Shown here: one piece after another, positions 13,901 through 21,778 of the stretch
Layout of the letters: the number at the start of each line of letters is the position of its first letter
Numbering within the stretch: the stretch's first letter is position 1
Source of the DNA: a virus
Strand: one strand, 5' to 3'
DNA length: 23,533 nucleotides
Virus record (IMG/VR): IMGVR_UViG_3300035438_001056
Coordinates: 1 to 23,533 of that record
Notes under the pieces: generated by a model
What the model was told of the DNA's origin: nothing
Seen by the model: only the letters and a program-made list of their open reading frames with translations
Database searches by the model: none
Translations under genes and position numbers: made by a program

Positions 13901-13975
13901 GCTTCGCAAGCATAGATGGCGATGCAGAGGTTTTGTAAACCTCAGAGCAGAGTTCAAGTCTCTGGCGAAGCTCCA
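13901..13975 (+). tRNA. tRNA-Thr(UGU)
   Basis: Full cloverleaf: acceptor GCTTCGC/GCGAAGC, D stem GCAT/ATGC, anticodon stem GAGGT/ACCTC with loop TTTGTAA (anticodon TGT), T stem CAGAG/CTCTG with loop TTCAAGT. CCA is encoded and a short T run follows. It lies 18 bases after the RuvB-like gene and 6 bases before an HNH gene, without its own boxA-like motif. Confidence 0.9.
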
Positions 13976-13981
13976 ATTTTT

Positions 13982-14446
13982 ATGAAAAGAAGTTTGTATA
14001 AAGAAGAAATCCTCAGATTAAGATCTGAGGGCAAAACAGGAAATGAAATTTCTAAGCTTCTCAAATGTTCAAGAACATTAGTTTCTTATTACATAGATCT
14101 AGGTTATCAAAAAAGCCATCAAAATCGATCTAAGACTTTTAAAAAGACTAATAGATTTGCAAAGAAAGAAGAAGTAAGAAATAAGTTTGGCGGCAAATGT
14201 CAAATTTGTTCTTATGATAAGTGTCAAAGCGTACTGAGTTTTCATCATCTTCCCGGTACAAATAAAAAGTTTACTATTTCAGATGCGATAGTAAGAAAAA
14301 GAAAATCAGATGAAGAATTAGTGAATGAGTTGAAAAAATGTATTTTGGTTTGTGCGAATTGTCACGGTGAGATTCATGCGGGGATCACAGAAATTCCAGA
14401 AGGTATCAAGAATCCCTTGACAATCAGTGAAAGTATGATAAATTGA
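13982..14446 (+). CDS. HNH homing endonuclease with N-terminal HTH (154 aa)
   Basis: The start at 13982 lies just after tRNA-Thr; an upstream frame start at 13916 would run through the tRNA and is rejected. Residues 5-40 form a helix-turn-helix (I-L-R-L-R-S-E-G-K-T-G-N-E-I-S-K-L-L-K-C-S). The nuclease domain has C-Q-I-C, S-F-H-H-L-P-G and C-I-L-V-C-A-N-C-H-G-E-I-H, the H-H...N...H metal finger with two zinc CxxC pairs. It is a free-standing homing endonuclease type and shares layout with the minus-strand gene at 15063. A promoter begins in its 3' end. Confidence 0.88.
   Translation: MKRSLYKEEILRLRSEGKTGNEISKLLKCSRTLVSYYIDLGYQKSHQNRSKTFKKTNRFAKKEEVRNKFGGKCQICSYDKCQSVLSFHHLPGTNKKFTISDAIVRKRKSDEELVNELKKCILVCANCHGEIHAGITEIPEGIKNPLTISESMIN
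14417..14444 (+). promoter_or_regulatory. tRNA-cluster promoter 1
   Basis: TTGACA at 14417-14422, a 16-base spacer and TAAATT at 14439-14444, followed by exactly 6 bases and a GTTCTTT motif at 14451. It overlaps the end of the HNH gene. Confidence 0.7.
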
Positions 14447-14450
14447 TCGT

Positions 14451-14457
14451 GTTCTTT
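14451..14457 (+). promoter_or_regulatory. boxA-like motif 1 (GTTCTTT)
   Basis: First of twelve copies in the RNA region, 6 bases after a -10 box, so close to the transcription start. It is followed by GGATGCAGCA, which resembles the 3' end of the tRNA-Lys downstream, perhaps a deletion scar. About 50 bases of imperfect repeats (GGTAGTTGAA, GGTAGTTTGAA) follow. Confidence 0.55.
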
Positions 14458-14505
14458 GGATGCAGCAGGTAGTTGAAGGTAGTTTGAAGTTTCTGCTAAG
14501 TCCGC

Positions 14506-14533
14506 TTGACAATTGAAGAAAGTGTGATAGATT
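14506..14533 (+). promoter_or_regulatory. tRNA-cluster promoter 2
   Basis: TTGACA at 14506-14511, a 16-base spacer and TAGATT at 14528-14533, again followed by 6 bases and GTTCTTT at 14540. The layout duplicates promoter 1, which lies 89 bases upstream. Confidence 0.75.
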
Positions 14534-14539
14534 GTCAAT

Positions 14540-14546
14540 GTTCTTT
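14540..14546 (+). promoter_or_regulatory. boxA-like motif 2 (GTTCTTTCAATAA)
   Basis: Six bases after promoter 2 and 7 bases before tRNA-Lys. The extension CAATAA is shared with motifs 6 and 12. Confidence 0.6.
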
Positions 14547-14553
14547 CAATAAT

Positions 14554-14628
14554 GCATCCGTGGCGCAATGGCAGCGCAGCGGCCTTTTAAGCCGTTGGTT
14601 GTGAGTTCGAATCTCACCGGATGCACCA
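14554..14628 (+). tRNA. tRNA-Lys(UUU)
   Basis: Acceptor GCATCCG/CGGATGC, D stem GCGC/GCGC, anticodon loop CTTTTAA (anticodon TTT), T stem GTGAG/CTCAC with loop TTCGAAT, discriminator A, encoded CCA. A T run and a boxA-like motif follow directly. Confidence 0.93.
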
Positions 14629-14637
14629 ATTTTTTCA

Positions 14638-14644
14638 GTTCTTT
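14638..14644 (+). promoter_or_regulatory. boxA-like motif 3 (GTTCTTTTACAATTTA)
   Basis: Follows the T run of tRNA-Lys. Its extended form is close to the E. coli rrn boxA (GCTCTTTAACAATTTA). It precedes the unassigned structured RNA at 14653. Confidence 0.65.
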
Positions 14645-14652
14645 TACAATTT

Positions 14653-14783
14653 AAATTAGAAGATAGATGGCCCCATCTGAGGTTAGAATCCTTTTAGCAA
14701 AAGATGCGTATATGGGCTGAACGGAAGGATCTAAAAAATCTATTGAGCCTAATTAGCTCGCCGTGAAATCCTTAATCTAATTT
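14653..14783 (+). ncRNA. Unassigned structured RNA with pseudoknot (candidate)
   Basis: No tRNA or ORF fits. A closing stem pairs AAATTAGA (14653-14660) with TCTAATTT (14776-14783). Inside lie a hairpin AGATG/CATCT (14665-14678), a 10-bp stem TTAG-a-ATCCTT (14683-14693) with AAGGATCTAA (14725-14734), and a hairpin GAGC/GCTC (14745-14759). The hairpin loop GCCC (14670-14673) can pair with GGGC (14714-14717), giving a pseudoknot. It is flanked by boxA-like motifs, like the tRNAs. I do not recognise a known class; ribozyme, regulatory RNA or a processing element are open. Confidence 0.45.
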
Positions 14784-14792
14784 TATAATTTT

Positions 14793-14862
14793 AAGCAGTG
14801 AAGTCACTATCATTATAACGTGTGTTATTTATGATAGATGGAAATACGTTTCCCGCTGCTTA
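14793..14862 (+). ncRNA. Unassigned tRNA-sized structured RNA (candidate)
   Basis: A 70-base segment closes with AAGCAGT (14793-14799) and GCTGCTT (14855-14861), a 7-bp acceptor-like stem followed by A. Inside are a long hairpin CTATCAT..ATGATAG and a short hairpin GGAAA/TTTCC, but there is no D arm, no normal T-loop and no clear anticodon arm. It could be a decayed tRNA or a distinct small RNA. A boxA-like motif follows 10 bases later. Confidence 0.4.
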
Positions 14863-14871
14863 ATATATTTC

Positions 14872-14878
14872 GTTCTTT
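14872..14878 (+). promoter_or_regulatory. boxA-like motif 4 (GTTCTTTAAAATTTAA)
   Basis: Between the structured RNA at 14793 and tRNA(CAU) at 14905. No -10 box lies at the expected place, so it is an internal copy. Confidence 0.6.
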
Positions 14879-14904
14879 AAAATTTAATATGTAGTAGTTT
14901 CTAT

Positions 14905-14981
14905 GGGCCGTTAGCTTAAACTGGACTTAAAGCAGCATTCTCATAAAATGTTGATTGTCGATTCGATCTCGACACGGCCCA
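14905..14981 (+). tRNA. tRNA with CAU anticodon (Met or Ile2)
   Basis: Acceptor GGGCCGT/ACGGCCC, D stem GCTT/AAGC with GG in the loop, anticodon stem GCATT/AATGT with loop CTCATAA, T stem GTCGA/TCGAC with loop TTCGATC, discriminator A. CCA is not encoded; the discriminator is followed by CAGAG, the same as after tRNA-Leu. Whether it reads AUG or, after lysidine modification, AUA cannot be told by eye. Confidence 0.88.
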
Positions 14982-15006
14982 CAGAGACTATTGCATATTT
15001 CTTGTT

Positions 15007-15084
15007 GGTCTGGTAACTCAACTGGTTCAGAGTACATGCTTTATAAGCGTGAAGTTGCGGGTTCAAGCCCCGCTCAGACCACCA
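15007..15084 (+). tRNA. tRNA-Ile(UAU)
   Basis: Acceptor GGTCTGG/TCAGACC, D stem ACTC/GAGT, anticodon stem CATGC/GCGTG with loop TTTATAA (anticodon TAT), T stem GCGGG/CCCGC with loop TTCAAGC, discriminator A and encoded CCA. The minus-strand HNH gene ends inside its 3' part. Confidence 0.9.
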
Positions 15085-15641
15085 ATTTTAATTTGTTCTT
15101 TTAAATCTACTAATCCATGATGCACTTCAGCGTGACAGTTTTTACAAAGCAGAACGCATTTATTCAATTCCTTAGTTAAGAATTCTAAACTATAACTTCT
15201 TAGTTGAGCTATATTAAATTCTTTTTCTTCTGGGTTTATATGATGAAAATCTAATGCACCAATATATTTATCGTAATTGCAAACAATGCATTTGCCTCCT
15301 TTATATTTCACACATTCTACTTTTCTAGCTAATTGTTTTTCATAAGTGATTTTATTATTACACGGCTTACACCATCCATGAACATCACCATTTTTAGAAG
15401 TGTAAAATTCATTTTGCAAGTTTTTCACTCCTTCACATTTAGGACATTTCTTGAATTGTATATCATTAATAAGTACAATACTTTTAGTTCGTGGCTGTTC
15501 TTTAAAAGATTTGTTTTTAGTTTTTAAATCAAATTTTTTAAGCCAATGGCGAATGCTCGTTCTACTTTTGTTAGTAATTTTTGAAATTTGTCCGAGTGAA
15601 AGTCCTTGACTAACGTAGGTCTCTAGTGTAGATTTATCCAT
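15063..15641 (-). CDS. HNH homing endonuclease, antisense to the tRNA cluster (192 aa)
   Basis: An N-terminal helix-turn-helix (Q-G-L-S-L-G-Q-I-S-K-I-T-N-K-S-R-T-S-I) precedes a C-P-K-C/C-K-P-C zinc pair and the HNH core C-I-V-C, D-F-H-H-I-N-P, C-V-L-L-C-K-N-C-H-A-E-V-H-H. It resembles the HNH protein at 13982 in domain order and core motifs. Its last seven codons (G-G-L-S-G-A region) overlap the 3' end of tRNA-Ile by 22 bases on the opposite strand. Insertion between tRNA-Ile and tRNA-Glu suggests homing into the tRNA cluster. Confidence 0.87.
   Translation of the reverse strand: MDKSTLETYVSQGLSLGQISKITNKSRTSIRHWLKKFDLKTKNKSFKEQPRTKSIVLINDIQFKKCPKCEGVKNLQNEFYTSKNGDVHGWCKPCNNKITYEKQLARKVECVKYKGGKCIVCNYDKYIGALDFHHINPEEKEFNIAQLRSYSLEFLTKELNKCVLLCKNCHAEVHHGLVDLKEQIKIGGLSGA
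15095..15101 (+). promoter_or_regulatory. boxA-like motif 5 (GTTCTTTTAAA)
   Basis: Follows the T-rich tail of tRNA-Ile on the + strand and lies inside the 3' end of the antisense HNH gene. Confidence 0.5.
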
Positions 15642-15681
15642 AGTTCAATTCTTATTACACATTATTATAAGACTTGGGCTA

Positions 15682-15688
15682 GCTCTTT
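15682..15688 (+). promoter_or_regulatory. boxA-like motif 6 (GCTCTTTCAATAAAATTTT)
   Basis: The GCTCTTT form is identical to the E. coli rrn boxA core. It stands 15 bases before tRNA-Glu; a possible TATAAG lies at 15666-15671. Confidence 0.6.
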
Positions 15689-15703
15689 CAATAAAATTTT
15701 AAC

Positions 15704-15778
15704 GGTCCATTAGTCTAGTGGTTATGACACTGCCCTTTCACGGCGGGAACAAGAGTTCGATTCTCTTATGGACTGCCA
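15704..15778 (+). tRNA. tRNA-Glu(UUC)
   Basis: Acceptor GGTCCAT/ATGGACT (first pair G-T), D stem GTCT/TGAC region, anticodon loop CTTTCAC (anticodon TTC), T loop TTCGATT, discriminator G as usual for Glu, and encoded CCA. Followed by a T run and a promoter for the next tRNA. Confidence 0.9.
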
Positions 15779-15789
15779 ATTTTTTCCCC

Positions 15790-15818
15790 TTGACAGGGGC
15801 CATAATCTCTAGTAGATT
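15790..15818 (+). promoter_or_regulatory. tRNA-cluster promoter 3 (upstream of tRNA-Leu)
   Basis: TTGACA at 15790-15795, a 17-base spacer and TAGATT at 15813-15818, followed by exactly 6 bases and GTTCTTT at 15825. This is the third case of the same promoter-to-motif spacing. Confidence 0.75.
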
Positions 15819-15824
15819 GTGCGT

Positions 15825-15831
15825 GTTCTTT
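15825..15831 (+). promoter_or_regulatory. boxA-like motif 7 (GTTCTTTACAA)
   Basis: At the expected transcription start of promoter 3 and 23 bases before the intron-containing tRNA-Leu. Confidence 0.6.
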
Positions 15832-15854
15832 ACAACTGAATAAGAAAGTTCTGT

Positions 15855-16227
15855 CCAGCGATGGCGAAATGGCAGACGCAGCGGACTCTTAAGGGTCCAT
15901 ACATGAGAAATTGTGTATGAGTATGGTGTAAATTCGGTGAACGGTTCATAGTGCAACCCCTTAGCAGAAATGGTTTGGGGAGAGATTGAAATAATATCTT
16001 ACTATATCCCAACGCCGAGCCAAGCTTAATTGAAGTTGTCAATTTAAATCAGCTTCAATTGATAAGGTGTAGAGACTATAATCACCCTCCTAAGATTGAC
16101 TTGAAATCAATACGGAGAAGGCATAGTCCAGACCACAAACAGAGAAATCTGGTAGTGAAAACTATAGTGGCAGGTAAAATCCGCAGGTGCTAATAACACT
16201 GTGGGGGTTCAAGTCCCCCTCGCTGGA
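15855..16227 (+). tRNA. tRNA-Leu(UAA), interrupted by a group I intron
   Basis: Exons 15855-15887 and 16175-16227 join to an 86-base type II tRNA. Acceptor CCAGCGA/TCGCTGG, D stem GCG/CGC with the Leu-type AAATGGCAGA loop, anticodon stem GCGGA/TCCGC, spliced loop CTTAAAA (anticodon TAA), a variable arm with a GTG/CAC stem, T stem GGGGG/CCCCC with loop TTCAAGT, discriminator A. CCA is not encoded; CAGAG follows. Before splicing the anticodon does not exist, so function depends on the intron. Confidence 0.92.
15888..16174 (+). ncRNA. Group I intron in tRNA-Leu(UAA), 287 bases, no ORF
   Basis: The 5' exon end GGACT pairs with GGTCC at 15894-15898, giving P1 with the expected U-G pair at the splice site. 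The intron ends in G (16174). Core elements: a P-like AAATTCGGTGAA and Q-like CGCCGAGCCAAGC that form P4, an R-like segment GTGTAGAGACTATAA (from 16067), and an S-like AAGGCATAGTCC (16118-16129). P7 pairs GACTAT (16074-16079) with ATAGTC (16123-16128). P8 pairs CTCC with GGAG around an ATTGA/TCAAT hairpin; P9 has a CAGA-GAAA-TCTG tetraloop hairpin. It should self-splice by two transesterifications. Confidence 0.9.
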
Positions 16228-16239
16228 CAGAGCTTTTTT

Positions 16240-16246
16240 GTTCTTT
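16240..16246 (+). promoter_or_regulatory. boxA-like motif 8 (GTTCTTTTAATAATTTT)
   Basis: Directly after the T run following tRNA-Leu, with no promoter nearby. It precedes the long structured non-coding segment. Confidence 0.6.
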
Positions 16247-16254
16247 TAATAATT

Positions 16255-16345
16255 TTGCAGCAATGAGGGCAGTCGTCACTAAGACGTAGTTTGAGGTACT
16301 GGAAATAATCCGGTATATTAGACAACTGAGCGACCTGATCTGCGA
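16255..16345 (+). ncRNA. Unassigned structured RNA (candidate)
   Basis: Part of a roughly 500-base stretch (16228-16731) without a credible gene. TTGCAG (16255-16260) pairs with CTGCGA (16340-16345); next come AGG and TCG pairing with CGACCT (16331-16336), a CGTC/GACG hairpin, and a stem TACTGG/CCGGTA with the 7-base loop AAATAAT, which is sized like an anticodon arm but lacks U33. It could be a decayed tRNA or a small RNA of another kind. Confidence 0.35.
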
Positions 16346-16354
16346 AAAAACATA

Positions 16355-16395
16355 CAGTGCGCCCAAGTGATAATGTTTCTAGTCACTTTACACTG
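16355..16395 (+). other. Two-step hairpin
   Basis: CAGTG (16355-16359) pairs with CACTG (16391-16395) and AAGTGA (16365-16370) with TCACTT (16383-16388). An A run follows, so on the + strand it is not a standard terminator. Confidence 0.5.
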
Positions 16396-16417
16396 AGAAA
16401 AAAATGGGTATTAATTT

Positions 16418-16587
16418 TGACCATTGGTGTATAGAATTATAGCACACTACAAGACAGTAGAAGAGACTGAAATTGAACGAGAAGACATTTGGAAAAAAAG
16501 TACATATATGTTCGAAAGTAAATGTATTGATTTTCCATAATATATGGAACAATAGTGAAATCCTCGTATATTCGCAAGTCATGGTCA
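16418..16587 (+). ncRNA. Unassigned structured segment (candidate)
   Basis: TGACCAT (16418-16424) can pair with ATGGTCA (16581-16587) around three local hairpins: a GTG-TATA stem, CTAC/GTAG, and a perfect TTCCATA/TATGGAA. It ends 5 bases before the next boxA-like motif. The reading frame on the minus strand in this interval has no protein-like features. Function unknown. Confidence 0.3.
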
Positions 16588-16591
16588 TCCA

Positions 16592-16598
16592 GTTCTTT
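16592..16598 (+). promoter_or_regulatory. boxA-like motif 9 (GTTCTTTAAATAATTTA)
   Basis: Extended match to the rrn boxA. It lies between two structured segments with no tRNA next to it. Confidence 0.6.
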
Positions 16599-16608
16599 AA
16601 ATAATTTA

Positions 16609-16680
16609 TCTCATTAGAAGGACAAGGGGCTTCATGCCCCGTTCTTTAAAAAGACTTACTTCTAGTGGGATTTAATTTTT
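16609..16680 (+). terminator. Long-stem structure with embedded boxA-like motif, possible terminator
   Basis: CTCATTAGAAG (16611-16621 region) pairs over 11 positions, with G-U pairs, with CTTCTAGTGGG just before a T run. Inside are a GGGGC/GCCCC hairpin and the unpaired GTTCTTTAAAAA motif. The T run after the stem would allow termination before the promoter at 16694. Confidence 0.4.
16641..16647 (+). promoter_or_regulatory. boxA-like motif 10 (GTTCTTTAAAAA)
   Basis: Lies immediately 3' of a GGGGC/GCCCC hairpin, within the larger stem described at 16609. Confidence 0.5.
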
Positions 16681-16693
16681 TTATAAAAAATCG

Positions 16694-16722
16694 TTGACTT
16701 CCCTGAAGAATTCCTGTAGGAT
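16694..16722 (+). promoter_or_regulatory. Short-leader promoter
   Basis: TTGACT at 16694-16699, a 17-base spacer and TAGGAT at 16717-16722, 9 bases before the ATG at 16732. Confidence 0.7.
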
Positions 16723-16731
16723 GTATCCAAG

Positions 16732-16938
16732 ATGAAATTGTTCTACGCTTTTGTTGAGTTTAAGACGGGTGAAACTAATCAGTGGGGCGATGAGCTTACT
16801 GAGACTGGTTATGTAACTGAAAGTATTCTCAAAAAGAACAAAAATCAACAGGTCAAAGTGTATTGCTGTGGATTGATAATTAAATATACTAAAGTTGTTA
16901 AACTCAAGAATATTGTTACTATCATTCCTCAGTATTAA
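16732..16938 (+). CDS. Small hypothetical protein in the tRNA region (68 aa)
   Basis: A predicted beta-rich protein: K-L-F-Y-A-F-V-E-F, T-G-Y-V-T-E-S-I-L, Q-V-K-V-Y-C-C-G-L-I-I, K-N-I-V-T-I-I-P. No family recognised. It has its own promoter 9 bases upstream and sits alone between RNA genes. The first part resembles phage proteins that carry a short SH3-like barrel, but that is a guess. Confidence 0.6.
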   Translation: MKLFYAFVEFKTGETNQWGDELTETGYVTESILKKNKNQQVKVYCCGLIIKYTKVVKLKNIVTIIPQY

Positions 16939-16955
16939 AACAATTTTTAAAACTA

Positions 16956-16983
16956 TTGACTTGTCTGAAAACTCTGATAAACT
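16956..16983 (+). promoter_or_regulatory. Short-leader promoter
   Basis: TTGACT at 16956-16961, a 16-base spacer and TAAACT at 16978-16983, 9 bases before the ATG at 16993. Confidence 0.7.
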
Positions 16984-16992
16984 ATTAAAACT

Positions 16993-17301
16993 ATGATTAC
17001 ATATACTGTAACTGTTGACGAATACGGAACCAAGCTTTGGCGTTTCAATGACAAGCTCCATTGTGAACATGGACCTGCTGTTGAATATTCTGATGGAACC
17101 AAGTTTTGGTATTTGAATGGTGAGCGTGATCGTACTGATGGACCTGCTGTGGAATGGGCGAATGGAAACAAGTTTTGGTATTTGAATGGCAAAGAACTAA
17201 CTGAAACTGACTGGCGCAAGCAAATTCAAAAGACTAAGGCTCCTTGTGTAGGCAAGATAGTGGAAATTGATGGTGTAAAATATAAGCTTGTTGAAGCTTA
17301 G
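16993..17301 (+). CDS. MORN-like repeat protein (102 aa)
   Basis: Contains about three tandem repeats of the pattern W-Y/R-L/F-N-G/D-x-x-H/D-x-x-x-G-P-A-V-E-x-x-x-G-x-K, for example H-G-P-A-V-E-Y-S-D-G-T-K-F-W-Y-L-N-G and D-G-P-A-V-E-W-A-N-G-N-K-F-W-Y-L-N-G. The two units are nearly identical at the DNA level too. This repeat family is common in large phages and giant viruses and forms beta-hairpin arrays; binding partner unknown. The C-terminal 25 residues (V-E-I-D-G-V-K-Y-K-L-V-E) form a small separate strand pair. Confidence 0.75.
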   Translation: MITYTVTVDEYGTKLWRFNDKLHCEHGPAVEYSDGTKFWYLNGERDRTDGPAVEWANGNKFWYLNGKELTETDWRKQIQKTKAPCVGKIVEIDGVKYKLVEA

Positions 17302-17307
17302 TTCTTT
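17301..17307 (+). promoter_or_regulatory. boxA-like motif 11 (GTTCTTTTTTAAA)
   Basis: Overlaps the last base of the MORN-like gene and lies just upstream of the promoter at 17320, so it acts, if at all, on transcripts from upstream. Confidence 0.45.
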
Positions 17308-17319
17308 TTTAAAAAACTA

Positions 17320-17347
17320 TTGACAATACTATAATAGAGTATAAGAT
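17320..17347 (+). promoter_or_regulatory. Promoter of the Arg-Asn-Tyr tRNA group
   Basis: TTGACA at 17320-17325, a 16-base spacer and TAAGAT at 17342-17347, 15 bases before tRNA-Arg. No boxA-like motif follows it, unlike the three promoters upstream. Confidence 0.7.
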
Positions 17348-17362
17348 AGTTGTAGATTTTAC

Positions 17363-17439
17363 GTTCCCGTAGCTCAGTTGGATAGAGCATCCGCCTTCTA
17401 AGCGGATGGTCGCAGGTTCAAATCCTGCCGGGAACGCCA
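17363..17439 (+). tRNA. tRNA-Arg(UCU)
   Basis: Acceptor GTTCCCG/CGGGAAC, D stem GCTC/GAGC, anticodon stem TCCGC/GCGGA with loop CTTCTAA (anticodon TCT), T stem GCAGG/CCTGC with loop TTCAAAT, encoded CCA. Reads AGA, a favoured Arg codon in AT-rich phages. Confidence 0.95.
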
Positions 17440-17446
17440 CTTTAGT

Positions 17447-17521
17447 TCCAGAGTAGCTCAATGGTAGAGTAGCGCACTGTTAATGCGCGTGTTGGAGGTT
17501 CGAATCCTTCCTCTGGAGCCA
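17447..17521 (+). tRNA. tRNA-Asn(GUU)
   Basis: Acceptor TCCAGAG/CTCTGGA, D stem GCTC/GAGT, anticodon stem GCGCA/TGCGC with loop CTGTTAA (anticodon GTT), T loop TTCGAAT, discriminator G as usual for Asn, encoded CCA. Only 7 bases separate it from tRNA-Arg. Confidence 0.95.
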
Positions 17522-17531
17522 TTTTTTTAAC

Positions 17532-17613
17532 TGGAGTATCGTATAGCAGCAATTACAGGAGACTGTAAATCTCCCGGCGCAAGCCTACGCTAGTGCAAGT
17601 CTAGCTACTCCAA
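17532..17613 (+). tRNA. tRNA-Tyr(GUA) with unusual D- and T-loops
   Basis: Acceptor TGGAGTA/TACTCCA, D stem GTA/TAC, anticodon stem GGAGA/TCTCC with loop CTGTAAA (anticodon GTA), a 14-base variable arm with GGC-GCAA-GCC, and T stem GCTAG/CTAGC. The T-loop is TGCAAGT instead of TTCAAGT, and the D-loop (TAGCAGCAAT) lacks the usual GG, so the normal D-loop/T-loop contact is changed on both sides. Ends are uncertain by one base; CCA is not clearly encoded. Confidence 0.75.
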
Positions 17614-17619
17614 CTCTTT
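17613..17619 (+). promoter_or_regulatory. boxA-like motif 12 (ACTCTTTCAATA)
   Basis: Directly after tRNA-Tyr. It overlaps the end of the convergent protease gene. The extension CAATA matches motifs 2 and 6. Confidence 0.45.
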
Positions 17620-21595: not shown

Positions 21596-21778
21596 ATGAA
21601 AAAAACGGCTAGAAAATACATAAAGAATACTACTCAAGCCTCGCCAAAATGCAGATTTATTATTGATTATAATACAAACGCTGTTAGATGCAATGCTCCA
21701 GCGACTCATAATTGTTCTGAATTTGGAATGTCGCTCTGTAATTTTCATTACTTTCAAAATTTGAAAGAGCTTGTTTAG
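21596..21778 (+). CDS. Small cysteine/histidine protein (60 aa)
   Basis: Basic N-terminus followed by C19-R-F-I-I-D-Y, C32-N-A-P-A-T-H-N-C40 and C48-N-F-H-Y. The C/H spacing is typical of a small zinc-binding fold seen in phage proteins. The ATG at 21596 follows the previous stop by 7 bases. Confidence 0.5.
   Translation: MKKTARKYIKNTTQASPKCRFIIDYNTNAVRCNAPATHNCSEFGMSLCNFHYFQNLKELV

Follow-up and report, generated by a model that had tools for sequence, protein, structure and literature searches.

We found that positions 15855-16227 of the window, which is a metagenomic fragment and the entire IMG/VR record of 23,533 bases (34% G+C), very probably represent a phage tRNA-Leu(UAA) gene that carries a 287-nt group I intron of a mobile lineage between U33 and U34 and would be spliced to a normal tRNA. 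ARAGORN detected eight plain tRNA genes at positions 13901-17614 of the window and made no tRNA-Leu call on the unspliced sequence. A ninth, split tRNA gene sits between those for tRNA-Glu and tRNA-Arg. When 15855-15887 and 16175-16227 were joined, ARAGORN returned an 86-base tRNA-Leu(UAA) with a complete cloverleaf, which bears out, at exactly these coordinates, the initial annotation that a clean tRNA-Leu of this length appears once 15888-16174 is removed. The 5' exon (15855-15887, plus strand) comprises tRNA positions 1-33 and ends in GGACU with U33 as its last base, the same rule being followed in the relatives. The 3' exon (16175-16227, plus strand) comprises positions 34-73; according to ARAGORN on the spliced sequence and direct reading, it contains the anticodon UAA, the long variable arm, the T arm, and A73, and CCA is not encoded. 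The intron (15888-16174, plus strand) starts with CUUAAG, ends with the omega G, and is matched by the covariance models R2 and RF00028.

Direct reading gave three candidates for the U that ends exon 1 (15887, 15889, and 15890) and two for the G that ends the intron (16173 and 16174). Only the combination of 15887 and 16174 yields an exon-final U, an intron-final G, and a seven-base anticodon loop (CUUAAAA), which places the break between U33 and U34, as had been proposed before. ARAGORN run in intron mode on the unspliced gene preferred a tRNA-Lys(CUU) with an intron at 37|38. With this cut, however, both the exon and the intron would have A as their last base, which violates the group I rules, and the class II body that is left has an anticodon stem, a long variable arm, and an A73 that fit tRNA-Leu. 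Moreover, in 15 relatives split at the same site, the tRNA reads as tRNA-Leu(UAA). The tRNA-Lys(CUU) reading, which we consider extremely unlikely, was therefore dropped for breaking the splice-site rules, and the gene is treated as tRNA-Leu(UAA) in the following.

A covariance model search with RF00028 matched 15878-16154 over the full model length (31.8 bits, E 4.1e-6). Since this score lies below the gathering score of 50, which is a curation threshold and not a mechanistic feature, the default Rfam search of the window gave no intron match. The model R2 was based on 20 related introns, all of them located in tRNAs other than tRNA-Leu; relatives had been gathered from IMG/VR and bacterial genomes via a conserved 3'-end pattern, after which their exons were joined and the tRNAs re-identified. 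R2 matched 15880-16180 over its full length with 143.5 bits (E 4.6e-40) and the same intron boundaries. The comparison with group I covariance models that the initial annotation had suggested thus gave a match below the cut-off for RF00028 and a strong one for the independent R2. A protein-spliced archaeal bulge-helix-bulge intron would likewise be located in the anticodon loop of a tRNA, but a full-length match to a group I family model, a length of 287 nt, and a covarying P3/P7 core leave this origin with virtually no probability and argue for a group I intron. A second R2 match at 21736-21763 (E 1.5e-4), an AT-rich fragment of 28 bases, was taken as chance and rejected as an intron.

The fold of the precursor was stronger than that of 100/100 shuffled sequences (z -3.67). 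P1 (15883-15898, plus strand as for all elements of the intron) is formed by the exon sequence GGACU (15883-15887) and the guide GGUCC (15894-15898), with a U-G pair at the splice site and the extension pair C15888-G15893; it is seen in the fold and in covariation over 33 introns. P2 is a hairpin with a GAAA loop (15899-15918), which is present in the fold and shows two-sided changes at 7/7 pairs. The 5' strand of P3 (GGUG, 15925-15928) pairs with CACC at 16083-16086 in a pseudoknot with P7, while that of P4 (UCGGUG, 15934-15939) pairs with CGCCGA at 16013-16018 (98.6% of cells paired, with compensatory changes). The fold also contains a P6 extension hairpin at 16026-16060, in which AAUUGAAG pairs with CUUCAAUU. 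In P7, the guanosine-binding helix, GACUA (16074-16078) pairs with UAGUC (16124-16128), with 99.4% of cells paired, two-sided changes at 3/5 pairs, and a G-C as the first pair in 35/35 introns. The covarying P8 hairpin (16087-16117) pairs CUCC at 16087-16090 with GGAG at 16114-16117 (100% of cells paired, two-sided changes at 3/4 pairs). Finally, consensus fold, fold, and covariation support a P9 domain (16133-16170), in which CCAC and GUGG enclose P9a (CAGA-GAAA-UCUG) and P9b (GUAGU-GAAA-ACUAU). P10, inspected by eye, is not among the helices proposed.

An unsupervised consensus fold of 35 introns recovered P2, P4, P5, P6, P7, P8, and P9 together with the two hairpins of the latter. In this alignment, 96.2% of the cells were paired, compared to 78.3% after shuffling and no more than 41% when the partners were slid, and the covariation score of the structure was 0.519 versus 0.177. 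The pseudoknot helix P3 reached 488 in a separate test against a shuffled mean of 305 (sd 14, maximum 346). The P3-P8/P4-P6 core with its P3/P7 pseudoknot is therefore present, P4 to P8 by covariation and P3 by the separate test. The exon-guide pairing was Watson-Crick at -2 in 32/33 introns (shuffled mean 21.4, maximum 28) and at -3 in 31/33 (shuffled mean 13.7, maximum 24), the combinations observed being ACU/GGU, GCU/GGC, CCU/GGG, and CUU/GAG. The ends of the intron are likewise those of group I, with the U-G pair of P1 at the splice site, the terminal G16174, and the conserved G-C of P7. Hence, the P1 of GGACT and GGTCC with its U-G splice pair, the final G, and the drawable P4, P7, P8, and GAAA-capped P9 of the initial annotation were all recovered, and P2, P3, P5, and P6 were added. 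Its identification as a group I intron in a phage tRNA-Leu(UAA) likewise stands, based on the R2 match, the spliced tRNA, and the exon-guide covariation.

We infer splicing activity from the observed fold, covariation, and splice-site rules. In the standard group I mechanism, an exogenous G attacks the 5' splice site, after which the exons are ligated. Accordingly worded for the window, the precursor would fold into P1 to P9 around the P3/P7 core, a guanosine would be bound in P7, and the cut would occur at the U-G pair of P1, directly behind U33; this base would then be joined to U34 and the intron released after its terminal G, yielding an 86-nt tRNA-Leu. A decayed intron that has lost splicing and left a dead tRNA gene could be envisaged, as the relatives have intact intronless tRNA-Leu(UAA) genes. 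Yet every helix is intact, including P3, P7, and P1 with its 5-bp exon match, the tRNA body is complete, and a promoter-like site lies upstream, which makes decay improbable and favors an intron that can be spliced. This site is a candidate sigma-70-like promoter (TTGACA-17-TAGATT, 15790-15818, plus strand) just upstream of the tRNA gene, found by consensus scan and direct reading; similar boxes precede tRNA-Lys (14506) and tRNA-Arg (17320). Gene kinship was tried as a guide to the host and pointed to none: ThyX is 64% identical to that of an unassigned phage and 46% to those of Nodularia phages, and a clamp-loader-like ATPase is less than 30% identical to anything among the matches listed. 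Until it is spliced, the intron might conceivably hide the anticodon loop from anticodon nucleases; the bond that PrrC cuts in tRNA-Lys is likewise U33|U34.

Group I introns in the anticodon loops of bacterial tRNAs are already known, and that of cyanobacterial and plastid tRNA-Leu(UAA) occupies the textbook position U34|A35. Our method re-derived U34|A35 for every cyanobacterial tRNA-Leu locus analyzed, which validates it for finding sites and agrees with the earlier statement that these introns lie one base later than that of the window; it placed the intron of cyanobacterial tRNA-fMet at U33|C34. The cyanobacterial and plastid intron shares the tRNA type, the anticodon loop, and the group I core with the window intron and is found by the same covariance model. 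However, it differs in its position and forms a separate, fully supported branch. In a tree built on 165 core columns, the intron of the window grouped with those of L017 (tRNA-Leu) and L081 (tRNA-Lys) inside a phage-rich U33|34 set of tRNA-Leu, tRNA-Lys, and tRNA-Met/Ile2 introns, apart from the cyanobacterial Leu clade, the branch supports near the window being moderate (86/95).

A cyanobacterial or plastid intron that entered the phage together with its tRNA gene, and whose splice site then slid by one base, would explain the same tRNA type and the neighboring site. In line with this, the AU test did not reach rejection when the window row alone was placed with the cyanobacterial Leu rows (p-AU 0.12). 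The phage Leu U33 set as a whole with cyanobacterial Leu was rejected, however (p-AU 0.0021), as were all Leu introns as one clade (p 7e-6). The guides differ as well, being GGUC in the window versus GAGC or GAGU in U34 introns. Together with the position of the window in the tree, among the U33|34 introns that phages carry in their Leu, Lys, and Met/Ile2 tRNAs, these results make a slid site improbable. They support the insertion separate from the cyanobacterial one that had been suggested at the outset, for the phage set more firmly than for the window intron taken alone.

The insertion position itself is not new, since bacterial tRNA-fMet introns occur at U33|C34. These tRNA-fMet(CAU) introns from cyanobacteria, Bacteroidota, and Patescibacteria use the same U33|N34 site and belong to the same family by model score. 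They reside in another tRNA, though, and several contain an endonuclease ORF, which the window intron lacks. The best PDB match of such an ORF was 2OST (E 1.7e-57), the PD-(D/E)XK homing endonuclease I-Ssp6803I. As far as could be found, the U33|U34 site is thus new for tRNA-Leu and common to tRNA-fMet. The introns of Azoarcus tRNA-Ile(CAU) and of Agrobacterium and cyanobacterial tRNA-Arg(CCU) are also small bacterial group I introns of the anticodon loop; they differ from the window intron in the tRNA and in their position, which is U36|A37 in Azoarcus and Agrobacterium. We recovered the Arg(CCU) site 36|37 in one cyanobacterium (L249) and read it in Microcoleus phage My-WqHQDG.

With a 3'-splice-site pattern ending in GTAAA, all other loci found in IMG/VR (15/15) were tRNA-Leu(UAA) introns, re-derived at U33|U34. 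Two further tRNA-Leu(UAA) introns at U33|U34 lie on gammaproteobacterial MAG contigs (L161 and L171), and a search with exon 1 plus C found no further U33|34 tRNA-Leu introns readable by ARAGORN. One kind of 3' end alone led to split tRNAs in 70 virus and 38 bacterial-genome loci, numbers that include a few copies of one contig or near-identical contigs. The family occupies sites after U33, U34, U35, or U36 in at least 10 tRNA types of phages and bacteria. We observed introns after U33 in Leu(UAA), Leu(CAA), Ile2/Met and fMet (CAU), Arg(UCU), and Lys(UUU); after U34 in Leu(UAA), Ser(UGA), Ile(UAU), Arg(UCU), Glu(UUC), Lys(UUU), and UCA-anticodon tRNAs; after U35 in Asn(GUU) and Tyr(GUA); and after U36 in Arg(CCU). 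The exon-final U and the intron-final G were required by the family search and are not independent findings there; because the U before the cut was imposed, it is a rule that was used and not a discovery.

Several loci of the family stood out. The viral contig L099 (10313 bases) has group I introns in four different tRNAs, namely at 34|35 in Leu(UAA), Ile(UAU), and Glu(UUC) and at 35|36 in Tyr(GUA). Class II-length UCA-anticodon tRNAs, selenocysteine-like or opal-reading, are split at U34|C35 in phage contigs (L096, L104, L115, L116, L126, and L127) and in bacterial MAGs of Ezakiella and Bacilli (L176 and L183), several of the introns encoding an I-Ssp6803I-like PD-(D/E)XK endonuclease. In addition, a phage tRNA(CAU) intron (L118:3175-3741) contains what may be an ORF for an HNH endonuclease, running antisense to the tRNA.

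In four relatives that are 96-98% identical to the window phage over thousands of bases (L073, L077, L080, and L082), this slot is occupied by an unrelated tRNA-Leu(UAA) gene that lacks an intron. A sister phage (L081), whose long matches are 80-88% identical, has a group I intron at U33|U34 of tRNA-Lys(UUU) (L081:11209-11792), and its Leu slot is filled by an intronless class I tRNA of 76 bases with the anticodon UAA (L081:13169-13244). Introns were 91.6% and exons 72.1% identical between L017 (Leu) and L081 (Lys); the corresponding values were 92.3% and 77.1% between the window and L017, and 94.8% and 74.1% between L009 and L015. Judged by this comparison of sequences, the intron lineage is mobile and was gained or lost recently in the phage group of the window. 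The tRNA genes in the Leu slot look as if they were exchanged as cassettes, the near-identical phages having unrelated tRNA-Leu(UAA) genes at window 15831-16235, L073:12547-12635, and L082:13170-13256. Because the exons of the window gene differ too, its history fits cassette exchange and intron insertion alike.

The presence and absence of the intron are observed; the way in which it spread is inferred. The family inserts behind a uridine of the anticodon loop (U33, U34, U35, or U36) and fits its guide to the 3' side of the anticodon stem, and a near relative of the window intron is located in tRNA-Lys(UUU) of the sister phage. Candidate routes of spread are a homing endonuclease encoded elsewhere and acting in trans, an exchange of the complete tRNA cassette, or reverse splicing. 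As a tentative and rather doubtful proposal, a phage-borne anticodon-loop lineage might move between tRNA types at the RNA level, entering tRNA-Leu, tRNA-Lys, and tRNA-Ile2/Met by reverse splicing with a GGUC guide that recognizes GACU|N. This motif, common to the target tRNAs, would be made up of the 3' side of the anticodon stem together with the universal U33.

With regard to homing, the 2OST-type PD-(D/E)XK endonucleases of some relatives indicate that DNA-level homing probably occurs in parts of the family. In the window intron, the longest ORF has 51 codons and lies on the minus strand, so that we found no PD-(D/E)XK endonuclease ORF and no sizeable ORF at all. This agrees with the initial annotation, which had also pointed to HNH genes nearby; PHROG HNH families identified two, and the window additionally contains one GIY-YIG gene. 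The first free-standing HNH gene (15063-15641, minus strand, E 1.1e-32) overlaps the end of tRNA-Ile and is a possible mobility partner of the intron. The second (13916-14446, plus strand, E 7.2e-25) overlaps tRNA-Thr and occurs in intronless relatives too. The overlap of both with tRNA genes suggests that they were inserted next to tRNA ends. As movers of the window intron, however, we rejected the HNH genes: the intronless L073 retains one at 98.9% identity, along with a relative of the second at 54%, and a link between HNH genes and intron is therefore not demonstrated.

Phage group I introns are known from protein genes such as td, nrdB, and the DNA polymerase gene. The crAss-like helicase introns (L002 and L003) are also group I introns, with a P9 domain like that of the window and R1 matches of 95-100 bits; they differ in that they lie in protein genes with a GIY-YIG endonuclease gene close by. 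According to a review from 2014, the phage group I introns known up to that time were without exception located in protein genes, even though phages have many tRNA genes (PMC3984707). The main text of the huge-phage paper does not mention introns (PMC7162821), and the word "intron" is absent from that of the Atu_ph07 paper (PMC6102473). We found no description of group I introns in phage tRNAs in the literature searched, subscription journals being largely outside its reach. As far as could be found, the site in a phage tRNA-Leu and the family's spread across tRNAs of phages are therefore new.

A DNA similarity search against named phages gave only short 3'-end matches, among them Agrobacterium phage Atu_ph07 (87.9% identity with the window across 66 bases). 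Both Atu_ph07 and the 735-kb metagenomic phage LR756501 have a phage tRNA-Leu(UAA) with an intron of the same family as that of the window (156.4 and 185 bits), but these introns are unannotated and sit at U34|A35 instead of U33|U34. In the Atu_ph07 record (MF403008), a hypothetical protein crosses the 3' end of the split tRNA-Leu(UAA) (L001:1245-1606). The GenBank record of Microcoleus phage My-WqHQDG annotates a 286-base tRNA-Arg across such an intron without remark.

Since default ARAGORN and Rfam searches missed the copy in the window, tRNA counts for phages are probably underestimates. The mixed sites, the single guide rule, and the many tRNA types of the family provide a natural experiment in site choice and site change by introns, and phages are possible carriers of bacterial tRNA introns. 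A further observation concerns the region downstream of the tRNA-Leu gene (16236-16680), which has no strong gene candidate and no Rfam match at the gathering score. It is 98.2% identical in L073 despite the different adjoining tRNA gene and is possibly an unrecognized RNA or regulatory element.
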